Both the position numbers and the translations under genes were made by a program. Positions 2,854 to 47,047 of a stretch of DNA of 52,649 nucleotides are shown here, piece after piece. The stretch is from a virus. The notes beneath the pieces are model-generated. The model ran no database searches. It was not told the DNA's origin and saw nothing but the letters and a program-made list of their open reading frames with translations. Numbering within the stretch: the first letter of the stretch is position 1; each line of letters begins with the position of its first letter. The DNA lies in IMG/VR virus record IMGVR_UViG_3300003885_000004, positions 1 to 52,649 of that record; one strand, given 5' to 3'.

Positions 2854-3555
2854 TTAGTGGGTGTCTTTAGATGTGTCAAGCAGGGTGTCTGTAAAATTGG
2901 TGTCTGTGAGATCAACAGACTTGAGATCGGCAGACCAAAGATCGGCAAACTGGAGATTGGCAAACCGAAGATTGGCAGACCAAAGATCAGCAGACTGGAG
3001 ATTAGCAAACTGGAGATTGGCCGACTGGAGATTGGCCGACTGGAGATTGGCCGACTGAAGATTGGCCGACTGAAGATTGGCCGACTGGAAATCGGCAGAC
3101 TGGATATTAGCAAACCAAAGATTAGCAAATCGAAGATTGGCCGACCGAAAATTAGCAAATCGAAGATTGGCCGACCGAAGATTGGCCGACTGAAGATTGG
3201 CCGACTGGAAATCGGCAGACTGAAAATTGGCCAACTGGAAATCGGCAGACTGAAAATTAGCAAACCCAAGATTGGCCGACTGAAGATTGGCCGACTGAAA
3301 ACTGGCAGACTGAAGGTTGGCAAACTGAAGACTGGCAGACTGAAGACTGGCAGACTGAAGGTTGGCAGACCGGAGATTGGCCGACTGAAGGTTGGCCGAC
3401 TGAAGATTGGCAGACCGGAGATTGGCCGACTGAAGGTTGGCCGACTGAAGATTGGCCGACTGAAGATCAGCAGACCGTAGATCAGCAGACCGTAGATCAA
3501 GCGCTATTCCTAGGTTGTTACCCGTCTCAATCAGATATTCGACATTATCTTTCAT
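2854..3555 (-). CDS. Long pentapeptide-repeat protein
   Basis: 233 residues. After a 20-residue start, about 40 consecutive pentapeptides of the type A-[DN]-[LF]-[QRW]-S fill almost the whole protein, which is diagnostic of the pentapeptide-repeat fold (a right-handed quadrilateral beta-helix). Some members (MfpA, Qnr, AlbG) mimic DNA and bind gyrase; others have unknown roles, so gyrase binding is only a possibility. Start chosen at ATG 3555 (AAGGA upstream) rather than the TTG at 3576. The DNA is a nearly perfect 15-bp array (CAGTCGGCCAATCTT type), so copy number may vary. Confidence 0.93.
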
Positions 3556-3572
3556 TTTTCTGTCCTTATCTT

Positions 3573-3779
3573 TCAAACGTCAAACGGAGGAGCGTACCGT
3601 AGTTCAATGTCCAATGGTATCGCGATTTCATTTTCTGGACACGTTTCGGCTTTCGCAGTTTCGTAATTCGGGAATATTTTTGCTTCCCTCAGGTCCTTAG
3701 TCCAGGCTTTGCCAGTGGTCCCAGGGTCACCATGTAGATACCCACCGCCTTGATCATATCGCTTGATTACATGTCTCAT
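3573..3779 (-). CDS. Hypothetical 68-aa protein
   Basis: Starts at ATG 3779, overlapping the TGA of the upstream gene (ATGA), so probably translationally coupled. It resembles short phage proteins with an M-R-H-V-I-K-R-Y start and a G-G-Y-L motif; the C-terminus (I-P-L-D-I-E-L-R-Y) looks like a beta strand. Function unknown. Confidence 0.75.
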   Translation of the reverse strand: MRHVIKRYDQGGGYLHGDPGTTGKAWTKDLREAKIFPNYETAKAETCPENEIAIPLDIELRYAPPFDV

Positions 3780-8704: not shown

Positions 8705-8880
8705 AAATCACTAATTCTTCTTAAGAGTCTATGCTGAGTCCCAACAATGACTACTTCGCATGCGTTATTCTCTGCTCCTGGCCTATCAGAGCTATCTGAA
8801 ATTATACGTATGACTACAATCTCTATGGGTTGAAACAGATAATTCGTATAATAGTGTCCACCTTTACTTACACTCTTCAT
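8689..8880 (-). CDS. Hypothetical 63-aa protein after csrA
   Basis: Overlaps the end of csrA by 17 bases and has GAGGAAAAG before its ATG, so the pair is likely co-translated. Beta-rich (I-E-I-V-V-I-R-I-I-S-D-S, V-V-I-V-G-T). No family is recognised. Confidence 0.75.
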   Translation of the reverse strand: MKSVSKGGHYYTNYLFQPIEIVVIRIISDSSDRPGAENNACEVVIVGTQHRLLRRISDLWEVF

Positions 8881-9046
8881 TCTTTTCCTCCTCTATCTTA
8901 TCATACACTTCTTTTCTATGTACGGATATTTCCCTTGGAGCAGCTATACCTAGTCGAACATGTCCTCTATCAATGCTTATGACTACGATCTTTATGTTGT
9001 CATTGATTATAATAGACTCGTGAACCTCTCTAGTTAGGACTAACAT
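8864..9046 (-). CDS. csrA: CsrA/RsmA-type translational regulator
   Basis: 60 residues starting M-L-V-L-T-R, then E-S-I-I-I, G-H-V-R-L-G-I-A-A-P-R-E-I-S-V-H-R-K-E-V and a charged tail, which is the full CsrA pattern including the R-L-G-I-x-A-P core and the V-H-R basic motif used for RNA (GGA) binding. CsrA dimers bind GGA motifs in leaders and control translation or stability. GAGGAGG lies 6 bases before ATG 9046. Here it may redirect host mRNAs or act on phage leaders, many of which carry GGA (inference). Confidence 0.95.
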   Translation of the reverse strand: MLVLTREVHESIIINDNIKIVVISIDRGHVRLGIAAPREISVHRKEVYDKIEEEKNEECK

Positions 9047-9218
9047 TATCTTCCTCCTCAGAAAAATGTACGTTAAATTCTCCAGCAGACCATGATAACT
9101 CACACATCTTTTTTATTCGAGGGTTGTCAATTTTTATGAAATGATGGTTGTACCATGCGTCAAATCCTTTCTTGATTAAGTCCTTTTCAATATCTGCGCT
9201 ATCAACCACTCTCACCAT
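9030..9218 (-). CDS. Hypothetical 62-aa protein
   Basis: Overlaps csrA by 17 bases and the upstream gene by 17 bases. Contains A-W-Y-N-H-H-F-I-K-I-D-N-P-R-I-K-K-M-C-E-L-S-W-S-A-G, a pattern found in small phage proteins (A-x-x-A-W-x-A-G type). Function unknown. Confidence 0.8.
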   Translation of the reverse strand: MVRVVDSADIEKDLIKKGFDAWYNHHFIKIDNPRIKKMCELSWSAGEFNVHFSEEEDNVSPN

Positions 9219-14515: not shown

Positions 14516-15571
14516 TTAGAAAGGGATACCGTCTCTGGATGTCGTAGCTACAGGTGCTACTGTAGCTCTAGGTCTAGGAGAAAGAAGAGTCGATTCATTG
14601 GAAACAGGAGCAGCCACAGGAGCTACAACATCAAGGGCAGCTACAGGAGCAGCAAGTAGTGCCGGTGCCGTTTCAACCACGGCCTCGATAGCAGGGGCCT
14701 CATTCTGTATCTCTTGATCCCGAATCATCTTATTGGTCTCAAGATACCCGTCGAACAATAGAGTATTCCTATCCATGTCCTCTTCTTTAACATATCTAGG
14801 TCCTGTCTGCGGGTTGTCTGCGGTTAAAGAATAATAATCACCTTTCTTCGCAACAGTGTACTTTGAATACAGCTCAAAGATACAATGATACATTGGAGCC
14901 TTTCTCAGGTTAGCAAGGGCACCAAAGGATGAACCGTTCTTATAACTTCCTACAGAAAAAGAGATTATAACCGGTATAGAATCGAATCCATCCAAGTGAA
15001 GAAAAGAGATATAGTTAAGAGTCTCACAAAACTTAATACTCTTCTCTCTATTATCAGGTTCCTCTGGATATGGGAGAGTATTGACACTCTTATCAAAACT
15101 CTTAGCCCTGCGAGCTATCTCGCTATTAGGATCGCGACTTCTTTCTCTGACAAATGGTTCCACATTTATTGGATTCCGAATAATCCACTCTACAAAGAAG
15201 CTTAAAGGAGTGAAGGGTATTCTTTGAGACTCCGTTGTTGGGGCACCGTCTGCCGTTAGTATAACAGGAGCAATTACCTCATTAGTTGGGGTCAATATAA
15301 CGTCACCCACTGAACGATCCTTAAGTAGCTCCGTACTAGAGGATTGCACAATCTTAACGTACTGAGCTGTGGTGTACTGCCTAGCTTCCTCTAGACCACT
15401 AGCCAGTGGTACTTCTCTGTCCGCTAGATAGATTTGCAGGTACTCTGGTAGGTCGTTGCTGTTAGTAGGGACAGCAGGTAGGTTTTCTTGAGTCGGCATT
15501 TTTTCCTCTTCTTTGTCTTGAGGGTTAACGTTAAGTATCCTAGTAGCAATCTGATTTTGTGGTGTAGTCAT
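14516..15571 (-). CDS. Replication-associated protein with SSB-like C-terminal tip
   Basis: 351 residues. The L-P-E-Y-L-Q-I-Y-L start, a V-K-I-V-Q-S-S-S-x-E-L-L-K-D segment, V-G-D-V-I-L-T-P and F-V-E-W-I match a widespread phage protein type of unknown biochemistry found near replication genes. The last 80 residues are a low-complexity A/V/P linker ending R-D-G-I-P-F, resembling the D-D-I-P-F tip by which SSB proteins recruit partners. A single-stranded-DNA-binding role is therefore suspected but not shown. Paralogue of 15568-16242, whose stop it overlaps. Confidence 0.85.
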   Translation of the reverse strand: MTTPQNQIATRILNVNPQDKEEEKMPTQENLPAVPTNSNDLPEYLQIYLADREVPLASGLEEARQYTTAQYVKIVQSSSTELLKDRSVGDVILTPTNEVIAPVILTADGAPTTESQRIPFTPLSFFVEWIIRNPINVEPFVRERSRDPNSEIARRAKSFDKSVNTLPYPEEPDNREKSIKFCETLNYISFLHLDGFDSIPVIISFSVGSYKNGSSFGALANLRKAPMYHCIFELYSKYTVAKKGDYYSLTADNPQTGPRYVKEEDMDRNTLLFDGYLETNKMIRDQEIQNEAPAIEAVVETAPALLAAPVAALDVVAPVAAPVSNESTLLSPRPRATVAPVATTSRDGIPF

Positions 15572-16242
15572 CTAATCTCCTTGAGGTTAAATATTCTCTT
15601 TTCCATATCTTCTTCTACGATATAGTCCGGCCCAAATTCAGGGTTAGTTACGGACAGACTATACGAACTCTCTACTTCATCTGTAACATACCTTGAGTAC
15701 AAATCAAATAGACAAAGATGCATAGGTGTTTTCCTTAAAGCGATAAGGTTACCAAAATCTAAGCCATTTTTGTAGTTTCCTAGTGCGAAAGATAGAGTAA
15801 CAGGTAGCACAACAGGCAGTACAACAGGCGTGTCATAGAGTGCCAATATATGGAGAAAGCAAATGTAGTTGAGAATCTCACAATACTCCACCCCCTCATA
15901 CTCACCATTAAACTTCTTAGCTCTACGGGCTATCTCGCTATCAGGGTCCCTACTCCTATCTTTGATAATTGGTAACCCATCTACAAAATTTCTGACCATC
16001 CATTCTCTAAAGAAACTTATAGGGGTGAAAGATGCCTTTCTTGAATCCGTCCCCGATTCATTATTATCTGTCAAAACAACAGTAGCAACCACCTTATTAC
16101 CAGGGTGCAGAACAATGTCACCTGCTAGTCGACCTTTAGATAGTTCCTCGCTGCGTGTTTGTATAACATGAATGTGGGCTGGTTCATTTAGGTTATCTAG
16201 GTATTCCTTCAGGTACTCTGGTTGCTGATATGTATTGGTCAT
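15568..16242 (-). CDS. Shorter paralogue of the 14516-15571 protein
   Basis: 224 residues sharing the pattern Y-L-K-E-Y-L, Q-T-R-S-E-E-L-S-K, G-D-I-V-L-H-P, F-R-E-W, R-S-R-D-P-[DN]-S-E-I-A-R-R-A-K and L-N-Y-I-x-F-L-H with its downstream neighbour, but lacking the A/V/P linker and the I-P-F tip. This is a tandem duplication in which one copy kept or gained the tail. The pair may form a hetero-oligomer (inference). Confidence 0.85.
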   Translation of the reverse strand: MTNTYQQPEYLKEYLDNLNEPAHIHVIQTRSEELSKGRLAGDIVLHPGNKVVATVVLTDNNESGTDSRKASFTPISFFREWMVRNFVDGLPIIKDRSRDPDSEIARRAKKFNGEYEGVEYCEILNYICFLHILALYDTPVVLPVVLPVTLSFALGNYKNGLDFGNLIALRKTPMHLCLFDLYSRYVTDEVESSYSLSVTNPEFGPDYIVEEDMEKRIFNLKEIR

Positions 16243-18052: not shown

Positions 18053-18253
18053 TTAACGTAGAGTATTTTTTGCCATTATACCAATTGTCTCGGACAATTG
18101 GTGTATCTCACTAATTGGGACTAAGTCCACTGTGGTCGTACCTTTCTCTCTTAATATTACACTGATGGCTTTGTATTCATTACAATATTCTATTTCCAGC
18201 GTCCCACCTTGTTGTTTCAAAATTCTTATCATCGCTTCCCAATTTTCATCCAT
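18053..18253 (-). CDS. Hypothetical 66-aa protein
   Basis: Overlaps the end of the PEP-CTERM gene by 25 bases. Beta-alpha pattern (T-L-E-I-E-Y-C-N, A-I-S-V-I-L-R-E-K). No family is recognised. Confidence 0.75.
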   Translation of the reverse strand: MDENWEAMIRILKQQGGTLEIEYCNEYKAISVILREKGTTTVDLVPISEIHQLSETIGIMAKNTLR

Positions 18254-19104
18254 ACGAATAGTCCCATAAGTGTTAGAAGTATTAGGTGTGTAATAGTACT
18301 TGGTTCCGGTACTGCTACTAAGACTGTAGGATAACCCTTACCCCAGTTAACAGCTAGTTGATGCAGGTCAGCGGTGCTAATAAATCCATCCCTAGTGAAG
18401 TCTCCTTGGTCCCAACCGCCATGTTGCTGCCAACTGGTCCCTATGGTGTTCAGGTCAACTGCATTCACTAGACCGTCTCTGTTAGCATCACCCTTGACAT
18501 AGCCTAAGTCTAAACTGTCTAGGGTAATGTCTATTGTAGGTCTTTCTGCCCAATACGGCCTATCAATGTCACTCTTCAGTATAAACCTAGTAACTCCGTC
18601 CTCTAGGAAATCACCAGTTACCAAGGGCAAGTCTTGCAGATAGATCAGAGAGTCATCCCAGACAATATCGGCATCCTTTCTATCGGCAATAGATAAGAAT
18701 GTTGAGAACGTATTCTCTGGCTCACCTGACGATACTAGATTCCATGACCCAACTGCAATACTGTCAAAGGTTGTTGGGGGTGCTGGGCAGCAATCTACGT
18801 AATCATTAGCTATGAAAAGAGCTGTCTCTCCGTTACCTGCATAGGTGAGTGTATCATCTCCAATCGTAGCTCCAAAACCTAATGGGTCACCAGTTACAGA
18901 ATCAATAGAGAACCACCCAGATACATTGTCACCCTTTCTGGCATGTAACATCATGCTATCCGGCCTACCTGTATTGTTAGCAATTTCTTTAACAATGCCT
19001 GTGAAATTGTACTTTACTGGTGATGCAGTCGACATTGATACCAACAATGTTATAACTGTTGCTGCTTCCACGACTCTTCTTGTTGTTTTTCCCATTCTCT
19101 GCAT
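18229..19104 (-). CDS. Secreted dockerin / PEP-CTERM surface protein
   Basis: 291 residues. An N-terminal signal peptide (T-T-R-R-V-V-E-A-A-T-V-I-T-L-L-V) is followed by a beta-rich domain starting Y-N-F-T-G-I-V, like many PEP-CTERM proteins. Residues about 202-264 carry two Ca-binding loops (G-D-A-N-R-D-G-L-V-N-A-V-D-L and G-D-F-T-R-D-G-F-I-S-T-A-D-L), i.e. a dockerin type I module. The last 27 residues are V-P-E-P-S, a hydrophobic helix and a basic end: the PEP-CTERM signal cleaved by host exosortase. Both traits are typical of Planctomycetota. The product should be exported by host machinery to the infected-cell surface. AGAGGAC precedes ATG 19104; it overlaps the gene upstream by 55 bases. 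Confidence 0.93.
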   Translation of the reverse strand: MQRMGKTTRRVVEAATVITLLVSMSTASPVKYNFTGIVKEIANNTGRPDSMMLHARKGDNVSGWFSIDSVTGDPLGFGATIGDDTLTYAGNGETALFIANDYVDCCPAPPTTFDSIAVGSWNLVSSGEPENTFSTFLSIADRKDADIVWDDSLIYLQDLPLVTGDFLEDGVTRFILKSDIDRPYWAERPTIDITLDSLDLGYVKGDANRDGLVNAVDLNTIGTSWQQHGGWDQGDFTRDGFISTADLHQLAVNWGKGYPTVLVAVPEPSTITHLILLTLMGLFVWMKIGKR

Positions 19105-19760
19105 TGTCTTGTCCTCTTAAGAATTTGCCCCGAAACATATTCACGTTCACGTCCACTAAAGTCCCACCAATCTACTACAAAAAACTTGTCGTTATTAGGT
19201 CTCTTCAAAACGACTGACATTTCTTGCGTATTGCCGCTAGGGTCCGGCACCCAACCCATCTTGTATAGGGTTGCTTTGACCTTGCGTGCTCCCCACTCTA
19301 CTTCTTTGCATCCTTTAAACTGGATATAGATGTAACCTTTGAATTCCCTCTCCTCCCAGATGAGACCCTCTTTGAAATCTCTATCAGACCAAGCCCTAGA
19401 TTGTTCGGACCTTAGAATATCAGCTATGCGACCTTTCAAGAAAAAGATATTCCAATACTGATTAACGGGGAAATCACTCCTGTATCCGTACTTTTTTGCA
19501 ACGTACCCATACTTTAAGTCTTGAGGATTCATATTAGGAGGTATGCCGAGTCTCTTGTTATCTGGGTACTTAGAGTATTTTGTCTTCTCCTCTCTTTCGT
19601 ACTTCTCCCTTCTTTCCTTCCAATAATTTAGCTCTTTAAGATACTCAGCAGCTATGGCATTGCTTTTCCTCTGTGCTCTAATCCTAGTCTCATTTGTATG
19701 CTGTCCGTAGCATGGGCTTTGCAGGGCTAGTAGTATCAATGGCACCAGTAATCTTCTCAT
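19050..19760 (-). CDS. Secreted hypothetical protein
   Basis: 236 residues with a signal peptide (R-R-L-L-V-P-L-I-L-L-A-L-Q-S-P-C-Y-G-Q), a charged helical stretch (residues 25-75, E/K/R rich), then a globular region with several W and Y residues and a Q/E/W-rich end. It overlaps the PEP-CTERM gene, so the two exported proteins are probably made together. No family is recognised. Confidence 0.85.
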   Translation of the reverse strand: MRRLLVPLILLALQSPCYGQHTNETRIRAQRKSNAIAAEYLKELNYWKERREKYEREEKTKYSKYPDNKRLGIPPNMNPQDLKYGYVAKKYGYRSDFPVNQYWNIFFLKGRIADILRSEQSRAWSDRDFKEGLIWEEREFKGYIYIQFKGCKEVEWGARKVKATLYKMGWVPDPSGNTQEMSVVLKRPNNDKFFVVDWWDFSGREREYVSGQILKRTRQCREWEKQQEESWKQQQL

Positions 19761-42062: not shown

Positions 42063-42569
42063 TTAGGTTTCCCTTCCGATCATTTGGTCTACCCATAGCT
42101 GCGCATCACCAACAAGGGCACCCGCCTCCGGCGCATTTCTTTGCAGTCTAACAATAGCTAACTCTCCGTCCAACCAACCATCTATCTGTGCATTAGTCAA
42201 CGCTACAAGAGTATTGGTGAACTTACCAACAGCATCCGCAGTTGTACCGAACACCCCTTGGTACGCATAAGTTTTTGATGTAGTTAAAACAGTCACATCC
42301 GCTTCCATACGCCTGATAGCTATTCTCCATTCTACATCCCCAGTTACTTGTGTATTACCAAACCAAGGAATAGCAAATGTCAAACCGCCCCCAGCATATC
42401 CCTCCAATAGACATGCAAAGTCAAGATACTCTGGTATACTATCATCGAAATTCCAGATATTGACCTTTTCTGCTGGCGTAGTTCCACCAGTAATCTGCCC
42501 AGGAGTAGCAAATGCTATTGATAGGGGCATAATGCCCAAGAAATGAACTACAGAATCGCCACTTGCCAT
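42063..42569 (-). CDS. Conserved virion-associated protein
   Basis: 168 residues starting M-A-S-G-D-S-V-V; it has T-P-A-E-K-V, W-N-F-D-D-S-I-P-E-Y, G-G-L-T-F-A-I-P-W and G-D-V-E-W-R-I-A-I-R-R. This arrangement is typical of a structural protein found in many uncultured marine phages, whose exact role is not known. Beta-rich, no signal. Confidence 0.85.
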   Translation of the reverse strand: MASGDSVVHFLGIMPLSIAFATPGQITGGTTPAEKVNIWNFDDSIPEYLDFACLLEGYAGGGLTFAIPWFGNTQVTGDVEWRIAIRRMEADVTVLTTSKTYAYQGVFGTTADAVGKFTNTLVALTNAQIDGWLDGELAIVRLQRNAPEAGALVGDAQLWVDQMIGRET

Positions 42570-42778
42570 TACATCACCTTAAACTCATTAGCACATTTAG
42601 GGCAAAATACATTCCCATAGTCTGCCCCTAAGACTTCAAAAAACTCAAGTTGATTCTCTATACTAAGGTCTTGTTCCAATCTCTGAACACTCTGATAATG
42701 GCTAAACGGCTTACCGGAGGAACTAAGAACCTCGTCAAGAGGGGTATACTTACATGATTGACATTGAATTATTGGCAT
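42569..42778 (-). CDS. Small zinc-ribbon protein
   Basis: About 69 residues with C-Q-S-C near the start and C-P-K-C near the end, forming a zinc ribbon. ATG 42778 (or the one three bases upstream) overlaps the TGA of the previous gene. It lies between structural genes; possibly a packaging or assembly factor, but the function is not shown. Confidence 0.75.
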   Translation of the reverse strand: MPIIQCQSCKYTPLDEVLSSSGKPFSHYQSVQRLEQDLSIENQLEFFEVLGADYGNVFCPKCANEFKVM

Positions 42779-43314
42779 CATACAACACCAACGACGCTCG
42801 GAACAACTGGATCATCACTAATACCTGAATTGATGTCATCCTTGTAATCTTTCACAGCATTCCCTAGCTGTCTAAGTTTGGTATTACTCCAGTTACTCGG
42901 AATAGCTGCACGAAGATTATCAACATTCCCTGTAGAAGCTTTCATGGTATTGAGAGCTAATTGTAGCTCCAATAGTCTTGTAAGTATGTAATTGTCTTGC
43001 TTATTGTAAGCCTGGACAACAGCTCTGTCTGTAACTCCTAGGGGCATCTGCCCCTCAATACGGTTAGTTACATTTTTTCTTGTATCTGACTGAATCTTAG
43101 CATCTATTGCTGCATCAACAGATGCCTTTTCAGGAGCCGTCATCTCACCTATATCTGTATTTCCAGATATGAGTTTCCAATACTTAGGTTCAACAGACCC
43201 ATGTAGAACATCAAACCCGGCAGGATTACGCAACCAATCTGCTGGCGGAAAGTTTTGCGTAGCCGCAGACTCTTGAAAATTAGCTGGATTAGCTTTCTCA
43301 ACTACTGTTGCCAT
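42778..43314 (-). CDS. Hypothetical protein after the portal gene
   Basis: 178 residues, helical, with P-P-A-D-W-L-R-N-P and L-L-E-L-Q-L-A-L-N-T-M-K. Directly follows the portal gene. It may be a head-maturation or portal-associated protein; no family is recognised. Confidence 0.8.
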   Translation of the reverse strand: MATVVEKANPANFQESAATQNFPPADWLRNPAGFDVLHGSVEPKYWKLISGNTDIGEMTAPEKASVDAAIDAKIQSDTRKNVTNRIEGQMPLGVTDRAVVQAYNKQDNYILTRLLELQLALNTMKASTGNVDNLRAAIPSNWSNTKLRQLGNAVKDYKDDINSGISDDPVVPSVVGVV

Positions 43315-45993: not shown

Positions 45994-46398
45994 CTACCTA
46001 CTGCGGAACCTTGTACGAGTAGTTTGATTAAGAACTGTTTTACCAAGCGAACGATCCCTATTCTTAAGCCTTCGATAAAGAAGTTTAAGAACAATCGGCC
46101 GCAGTTCTAACTCACCAATGCCAATATTAGCACCAATGTTTGCTCCAATACCAATACTAGAGCATACACCACCTAGAACAGGCACTTGCATTTGCTGCAT
46201 AGCGTACCCTGGGTAGTTGCTCACAGTTTGGCTTAACTGTTGTGTAGTCTGTGATACAATCACTGGCCCCCCAATCTGGGATGTCATTGATCCAGCTACG
46301 ACAGGGGCGAGAGGGATGTCTGTCTGACCCGCAGTAAGACTCCTATTCAACGACAACACTAACAACACTGACATACAACATACAATCTTTCCCATCAC
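45994..46398 (-). CDS. Secreted Gly-rich protein
   Basis: 134 residues: signal peptide (K-I-V-C-C-M-S-V-L-L-V-L-S-L), a Q/T/V-rich middle, G-I-G-A-N-I-G-A-N-I-G repeats and a basic Arg-rich end. Exported by the host; periplasmic or surface. Lies directly after the CAP gene and before the terminator. No family is recognised. Confidence 0.8.
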   Translation of the reverse strand: MMGKIVCCMSVLLVLSLNRSLTAGQTDIPLAPVVAGSMTSQIGGPVIVSQTTQQLSQTVSNYPGYAMQQMQVPVLGGVCSSIGIGANIGANIGIGELELRPIVLKLLYRRLKNRDRSLGKTVLNQTTRTRFRSR

Positions 46399-46405
46399 AC
46401 TTCCC

Positions 46406-46693
46406 CTATCTTAAGATTAAAGAACAGTAAGTACCTTTTCTTGTCTTTACGCAGGAGGCACCAGCCTTACGAAACCTATTCGACATAGCGTAGCAAGCAT
46501 TAGCAATCGGGTTACCTCTACTGCTGTAAGACACTCCTTCAGCCCTGCCCGGACTAAAACTACCCCTTACATGAGACATTCGCCCATTCCTAGCTTGTCT
46601 GTTAGCCCTTTCACTAGCTACTTTAGTTAAACTGGCATCATATTGATACTCAGGTAACCCTTTAGCCCGTCTACGATTGTTCAAAACAGCCAA
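46406..46693 (-). CDS. CAP/SCP domain protein, apparently without its own start signal
   Basis: 95 residues from TTG 46693: V-L-N-N-R-R-R-A-K-G-L-P, Y-D-A-S-L-T-K-V-A, A-x-R-N-G-R-M-S-H and P-G-R-A-E-G-V match the CAP/SCP family. The frame is open upstream to the TGA that ends the 46736-47047 gene (46736-46738), with no ribosome site between. So it is probably part of that secreted protein, reached by readthrough, or split by a mutation. Confidence 0.7.
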   Translation of the reverse strand: MAVLNNRRRAKGLPEYQYDASLTKVASERANRQARNGRMSHVRGSFSPGRAEGVSYSSRGNPIANACYAMSNRFRKAGASCVKTRKGTYCSLILR

Positions 46694-46735
46694 GTCATTG
46701 TTCTGTACAGACTGTACAGACTGACCCCCTAGAGT

Positions 46736-47047
46736 TCATGTAGGGCAAAGGTCAACTGCTTGTTGTGCAATCTGTCCCTGTAAGTCCTGCAATTGTGCAA
46801 TAGATTCCTCAGATTTTGATTGCCCTAGTTGCGCCATTAAGGCTTTCTGATGATTCACCCTCTCCAACAAACTAACTAATACTTGCTGCTGCTTCAACAA
46901 TTCCAGACGTTGTATCTGTTGTTGTTTGAATTGTTCTAACTGTTGTTCCTGCTGTATTACAAATTGTTGCAAAGATACAGCATCAATATCCTCAGTTTGA
47001 GCCGAAAGAGGAACTACAAACAACAGTAAACACAAAAACATTCTCAT
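46736..47047 (-). CDS. Secreted Gln-rich coiled-coil protein
   Basis: 103 residues: signal peptide (F-L-C-L-L-L-F-V-V-P-L-S-A), then a Gln/Leu-rich heptad coiled coil (E-Q-Q-L-E-Q-F-K-Q-Q-Q-I-Q-R). The stop TGA is followed in frame by the CAP domain. The ATG overlaps the stop of the 47044-47196 gene. Possibly an envelope protein of the lysis phase (inference). Confidence 0.75.
   Translation of the reverse strand: MRMFLCLLLFVVPLSAQTEDIDAVSLQQFVIQQEQQLEQFKQQQIQRLELLKQQQVLVSLLERVNHQKALMAQLGQSKSEESIAQLQDLQGQIAQQAVDLCPT

Follow-up and report, generated by a model that had tools for sequence, protein, structure and literature searches.

Does a phage use the exosortase of its host to display a protein of its own on the infected cell? 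The question is raised by a gene in the viral record IMGVR_UViG_3300003885_000004, the whole 52,649-nucleotide stretch of which was analysed and is called the window here. Exosortase sorting is a bacterial envelope system, and Planctomycetota, the lineage named as host in a preliminary description made from the sequence alone, are a phylum with few known phages. The gene (18229..19104, minus strand) encodes a 291-residue protein, P0001, that consists of a signal peptide, an N-terminal domain, a dockerin region and a PEP-CTERM-type end; the open reading frame, strand and coordinates match the preliminary description exactly. The gene lies between an SNF2 helicase gene and replication genes, in agreement with the replication-side position described earlier. 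Judged from the sequence, an AGAGGA Shine-Dalgarno-like element (19112..19117, minus strand) is found 7 nt before the ATG.

A search of related phage genomes, proposed in the preliminary description, identified an ortholog of P0001 in synteny. The related phage, IMGVR_UViG_3300017530_000010 (G001, 49.4 kb), has a TerL that is 85% identical to that of the window phage, and the two genomes are colinear over most of their length. The block containing P0001 shows 78% DNA identity, like its surroundings. The ortholog has the same neighbouring genes, is 71% identical at the protein level and has the same tripartite plan. With a dN/dS of 0.16–0.24 between the two, P0001 is under purifying selection, and it is an inherited part of its own phage lineage.

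Of the two phages, only the window phage has a duplication that gave the adjacent paralogs at 15568-16242 and 14516-15571 (minus strand); G001 has one counterpart, that of the second paralog, to which the first is 37% identical. A small gene among the window head genes (42569-42781, minus strand) has its counterpart approximately 34 kb away in G001, at 42.9-43.1 kb; the gene has thus changed position, although the genomes are colinear elsewhere. A CsrA homolog (8864-9103, minus strand; PF02599, E=1.2e-23) has a 55% identical copy in G001. Within the left 8 kb of the window, which is higher in G+C, there is a long pentapeptide-repeat ORF (2854-3576, minus strand; PF00805, E=3.7e-43). Beside the terminase, the region 45994-47047 (minus strand) encodes a cluster of small proteins with signal-like N-termini, and a CAP domain (PF00188) is present in one of the ORFs; the cluster may be a second group of secreted proteins or belong to the lysis region.

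The ORF directly upstream of P0001, P0002 (19050..19760, minus strand), encodes a predicted secreted protein of 236 residues, which has two paralogs in G001. Its end overlaps P0001 by 55 bp in the window, compared with 4 bp in G001. A CYGQ site is conserved in P0002 and both G001 paralogs. The C-terminal domain weakly resembles SHD1, and this resemblance is suggestive only, as just one of the three paralogs ranks at the top of 5001 sequences against a small SHD1 profile. Because P0002 or its paralogs precede P0001 in the same stretch of both phages, the genes may form a small cassette for secreted proteins, lying between the SNF2 helicase and the replication genes.

Hydropathy analysis of P0001 reveals only two strong hydrophobic segments, residues 11–25 and 274–288. 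The first lies within a signal peptide-like N-terminus (residues 1–27; 19024..19104, minus strand), delimited by hydropathy and by alignment with the ortholog, in which the predicted cleavage site lies after MRILVTLIMLLVVAGAHA and before SP (between AHA and SP). These features agree with the signal peptide that had been proposed for P0001.

The PEP-CTERM-type tail occupies residues 265–291 (18232..18312, minus strand), and the protein ends in VPEPSTITHLILLTLMGLFVWMKIGKR. The VPEPS motif (residues 265–269) begins the tail, 22 residues from the end, and is followed by the hydrophobic helix at residues 274–288 (mean hydropathy 2.19) and by the basic end KIGKR. In the ortholog, whose end reads AIPEPNT-TM-KIGRR, the motif is IPEP, and the PEP, the helix and the basic end are kept while the linker and the helix sequence diverge. 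All three parts of the C-terminus as first described, V-P-E-P, transmembrane segment and basic residues, are thus present and conserved. The basic ends, KIGKR and KIGRR, contain three basic residues each and are weaker than the usual arginine cluster.

The Pfam PEP-CTERM model scores P0001 at 13.4 bits against a cut-off of 20.7 (15.0 for the ortholog), and TIGR02595, the NCBIfam PEP_CTERM model, scores it at 9.5 bits against a cut-off of 16; such curated cut-offs are detection thresholds and not biological features. An HMM constructed from PEP-CTERM ends alone (66 planctomycete tails) did not discriminate, and a short model of this kind cannot decide the matter because a spurious window ORF outscores P0001. 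A tripartite test, consisting of PEP, a hydrophobic stretch and a basic end at the stop, is passed by only one of 498 window ORFs, P0001, compared with an expectation of 0.018 per genome from shuffled tails, and by the ortholog alone among the 451 ORFs of G001. Furthermore, a profile of planctomycete dockerin plus PEP-CTERM ends matches P0001 with E=4e-25 and the ortholog with E=9e-28, and no other ORF in either phage falls below E=1. The profile check that had been suggested for this protein therefore has a divided outcome, with scores under the Pfam and TIGR02595 cut-offs on one side and the tripartite test, the ortholog and the combined profile on the other. Since the features are present but the curated cut-offs are missed, we classify P0001 as a putative PEP-CTERM protein by its anatomy, its conservation in the ortholog and the combined profile, and not by the Pfam model.

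The dockerin-type region (18334..18495, minus strand) contains two predicted calcium-binding loops, GDANRDGLVNAVD and GDFTRDGFISTAD (D206-x-N-x-D210 ... D217 and D235 ... D239 ... D246). Aspartate is found at positions 1, 5 and 12 of both loops, while position 3 is asparagine in loop 1 and threonine in loop 2. The two loops of the preliminary description are accordingly both found with their aspartates conserved, at a Pfam Dockerin_1 score (21.1 bits, E=3.7e-4) just under the cut-off of 22.9; the ortholog, at 21.7 bits, is also under it. Weak matches of CTX-M beta-lactamases to P0001 span the dockerin region far under the cut-off and were dismissed as chance. Type I dockerins (PF00404) share with P0001 the two DxNxDG-type calcium loops; P0001 differs in its score below the family cut-off and in that cohesin, the classical dockerin partner, is rare in the candidate hosts. 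In profile searches cohesin was over the cut-off in none of the phage genomes examined. A dockerin-cohesin role for P0001 appears unlikely because cohesin exceeded the cut-off in just one of 12 planctomycete genomes.

The N-terminal domain (residues 28–203; 18496..19023, minus strand) is the most conserved part of the protein, with 80% identity to the ortholog. No credible homologs of this domain were identified in 392 planctomycete genomes, where two weak matches proved spurious (a protein kinase and a compositional frame), nor in INPHARED, PLSDB or PDB sequences. No homolog of P0001 itself was found in INPHARED or PLSDB. The beta domains of cellular PEP-CTERM proteins from Thauera (L100) and a planctomycete (L097) were considered as relatives and are alike by eye only: the real sequences do not score above 5000 shuffles, and the hhalign probability is 2%. 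AlphaFold2 returned a pLDDT of 35 for both the full protein and the N-domain from an alignment of two sequences, and the beta domain proposed earlier is plausible yet unproven.

The distribution of the dockerin and PEP-CTERM combination points to the probable host. We scanned 84,980 genomes with a DNA pattern for a dockerin pair of exactly the spacing found here and identified 83 stretches, all but three of them in Planctomycetota or planctomycete-titled records (Phycisphaerae, Pirellulales and relatives). Of the other three, two are titled 'bacterium' and one is a Pseudomonadales MAG. PEP occurs within 35 residues of the end in 60 of 79 complete ORFs carrying the pattern, which is an undercount as several lie slightly further in. 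This agrees with the earlier statement that dockerin modules with PEP-CTERM ends are common in Planctomycetota; because the pattern was taken from the phage sequence, the genome sample is biased to the P0001 subtype. PEP-CTERM proteins are present in 84 of 199 sampled planctomycete genomes. Exosortase (PF09721) exceeds the Pfam cut-off in all 12 pattern-bearing genomes tested, with one to three copies each; the phage record contains none. In one planctomycete MAG (G002), many contigs start within the last 40–60 codons of a PEP-CTERM gene (for example C1, C3, C8, C12, C21, C25, C32, C37, C38 and C45), suggesting assembly breaks at repeated dockerin/PEP-CTERM ends.

TerL was uninformative as a host marker, being 30–33% identical to relatives in planctomycete genomes and 31% to those in enterobacterial phages. 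As it is no closer to either group, it is the architecture of P0001 that carries the host assignment. From that architecture, the host is predicted to be an exosortase-bearing bacterium, most likely a planctomycete. The planctomycete host of the preliminary description is thus favored by the protein architecture, and TerL lends it no support.

Comparable genes occur in other phages. Looser DNA patterns applied to the viral collection gave 13 matches, including three further clear cases; as the search used exact DNA patterns, the number of carrier phages is a lower bound. Nine of the 13 lack the dockerin/PEP-CTERM architecture and were set aside as repetitive or proline-rich proteins or frames lacking a PEP end. 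A further sequence (G408, which has a tape measure gene) was excluded since its 140-residue ORF (L111), ending IPEPGMLM..., has no signal peptide. The three clear cases show that two otherwise unrelated phage lineages also encode signal-peptide/dockerin/PEP-CTERM proteins. IMGVR_UViG_3300010413_000040 (G406, 55 kb) encodes terminase, portal, MuF, protease, virion structural and tape-measure proteins, and 3300003885_000141 (G407, 18.7 kb) is related to it, with a TerL that is 49.5% identical. In both, the dockerin/PEP-CTERM gene is located between a MuF head-morphogenesis gene and the head protease. The remark in the preliminary description that the gene is not encoded with virion genes consequently holds for the window and is not general. 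The MuF-like protein of G406 (L120:12797-15982) has an apparent intein-like insert (CFVNPKTYVRTDKG ... IVHNC). In the third contig, 3300037070_005035 (G405, 68 kb), genes for portal, terminase and tail proteins were identified, and inspection places an integrase gene and a putative PD-(D/E)XK-type nuclease gene close to its dockerin/PEP-CTERM gene.

A hydrophobic signal segment opens each of the three proteins, and each closes with VPEP and a helix, followed by a basic tail in G405 and G406. At 1e-5, G405 and the G406/G407 pair have no detected protein in common apart from the dockerin/PEP-CTERM protein. The window lineage has just a 57-residue tail-gene stretch in common with G405, and G001 has two weak matches to G407, one of which is the dockerin/PEP-CTERM protein. 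The P0001 tail aligns to planctomycete host tails at 62–72 bits. A tree built from the tails places the window pair in one clade and the remaining three phages in another, both among planctomycete sequences (support 0.98 and 0.99), which would fit at least two acquisitions of such tails by phages, in a host sample drawn with the window's own spacing.

Taken together, we consider it probable (about 0.68) that P0001 reaches the surface of an infected planctomycete through sorting by the host exosortase. The phage would infect a bacterium that has exosortase, most likely a planctomycete, and P0001 would be made in the infected cell, exported and held by its C-terminal tail. The host exosortase would then cut it at the PEP motif and direct it to either the outer envelope or the extracellular matrix, as for the host's own dockerin/PEP-CTERM proteins. 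The calcium-bound dockerin pair may act as a rigid stem or adaptor, while the phage-specific N-domain would alter the surface, for instance by hiding a receptor from further phages or by changing the polysaccharide matrix. We guess at superinfection exclusion or matrix alteration for the N-domain, and rank these first because the domain is both phage-specific and the most conserved part of the protein and because exported exclusion proteins such as Ltp are known; PADLOC gave no match for P0001.

The main rival is a plain membrane anchor, in which the C-terminal helix only holds a periplasmic protein in the inner membrane with no exosortase processing, where it might block DNA entry. A signal peptide plus a C-terminal helix is sufficient for this topology, and the PEP-CTERM scores under the cut-offs and the weak basic tail agree with it. 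However, the two orthologs retain PEP despite divergence of the linker and helix, the same PEP end follows dockerins in three more phage contigs, and the combination of the two is a planctomycete sorting architecture, so that we regard anchoring alone as unlikely. We give still less weight to a captured host gene carried as a passenger (moron) that helps the host cell, for example in matrix adhesion or aggregation, rather than serving phage competition. The P0001 tail is closest to planctomycete host proteins, the genomic context varies between phage lineages, and PMC12642866 cites Gao 2018 for a requirement for PEP-CTERM proteins in Zoogloea floc formation. Yet conservation at a core-gene rate in synteny argues against a recent passenger. 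A role of this kind would require a shared N-domain, but this domain has no host homolog in the 392 genomes, and no lysogeny gene was identified among the window proteins scanned.

A signal sequence at one end and a membrane helix at the other would also suit a protein of lysis, for instance a unimolecular spanin that bridges the inner membrane and the envelope. This reading is very improbable, as neither ortholog has a lipobox cysteine at the cleavage region to provide an outer-membrane tether, calcium loops of the dockerin type have no role in spanins, and the G406/G407 gene is situated in the head module. Hardly any credence remains for an artefact of assembly, the host fragment joined to a phage contig that the preliminary description had allowed for. 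Only the host-like architecture speaks for it, and it is contradicted by a syntenic ortholog in an independent contig with genome-typical divergence; mis-assembly is unlikely because P0001 aligns at that 78% identity inside genome-wide synteny. The local G+C of 0.42, equal to that of the whole genome, also argues against it.

Because at least two unrelated phage groups carry a similar gene, our results suggest that phages borrow the host surface-sorting system, and this recurrence favors a function in infection over capture by chance. Somewhat more tentatively, and with the odds a little against it, unrelated phages of Planctomycetota may repeatedly have fused dockerin/PEP-CTERM tails to phage-specific domains, so that the host exosortase displays a protein of the phage's choosing. 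If true, such display would parallel superinfection exclusion by lipoproteins, with the exosortase as the sorting route. Phage-encoded exosortase substrates would show viruses using exosortase sorting, link orphan phage contigs to planctomycete hosts, and offer natural short substrates for testing exosortase action in Planctomycetota. We found no report of phage-encoded PEP-CTERM proteins in the literature searched, which left most subscription journals outside and is no proof of novelty.

PEP-CTERM proteins were defined by a PEP motif, a helix, a basic cluster and a signal peptide (Haft et al. 2006, PMC1569441). Compared with these substrates of the exosortase (EpsH) system (PF07589, TIGR02595), P0001 shares the signal peptide and a C-terminus in which PEP, a helix and basic residues run up to the stop; like them, it lacks further hydrophobic helices between its two ends and has little homology elsewhere. 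It differs in being encoded by a phage, in a record that has no exosortase, and in its score under the cut-offs and its weak basic cluster. The Ltp lipoprotein of phage TP-J34 is a surface-exposed superinfection-exclusion protein (PMC3952083) and, as proposed for P0001, reaches the host envelope through a sorting pathway of the host. However, Ltp is a lipoprotein, whereas the route of P0001 would be the exosortase, and an exclusion role for P0001 is a guess. P0001 also resembles the dockerin/PEP-CTERM surface proteins of Planctomycetota (such as L078, L069 and L033), which have the same loop spacing followed by a PEP-CTERM end; they differ from P0001 in an unrelated N-terminal domain, and most of the host proteins are longer.
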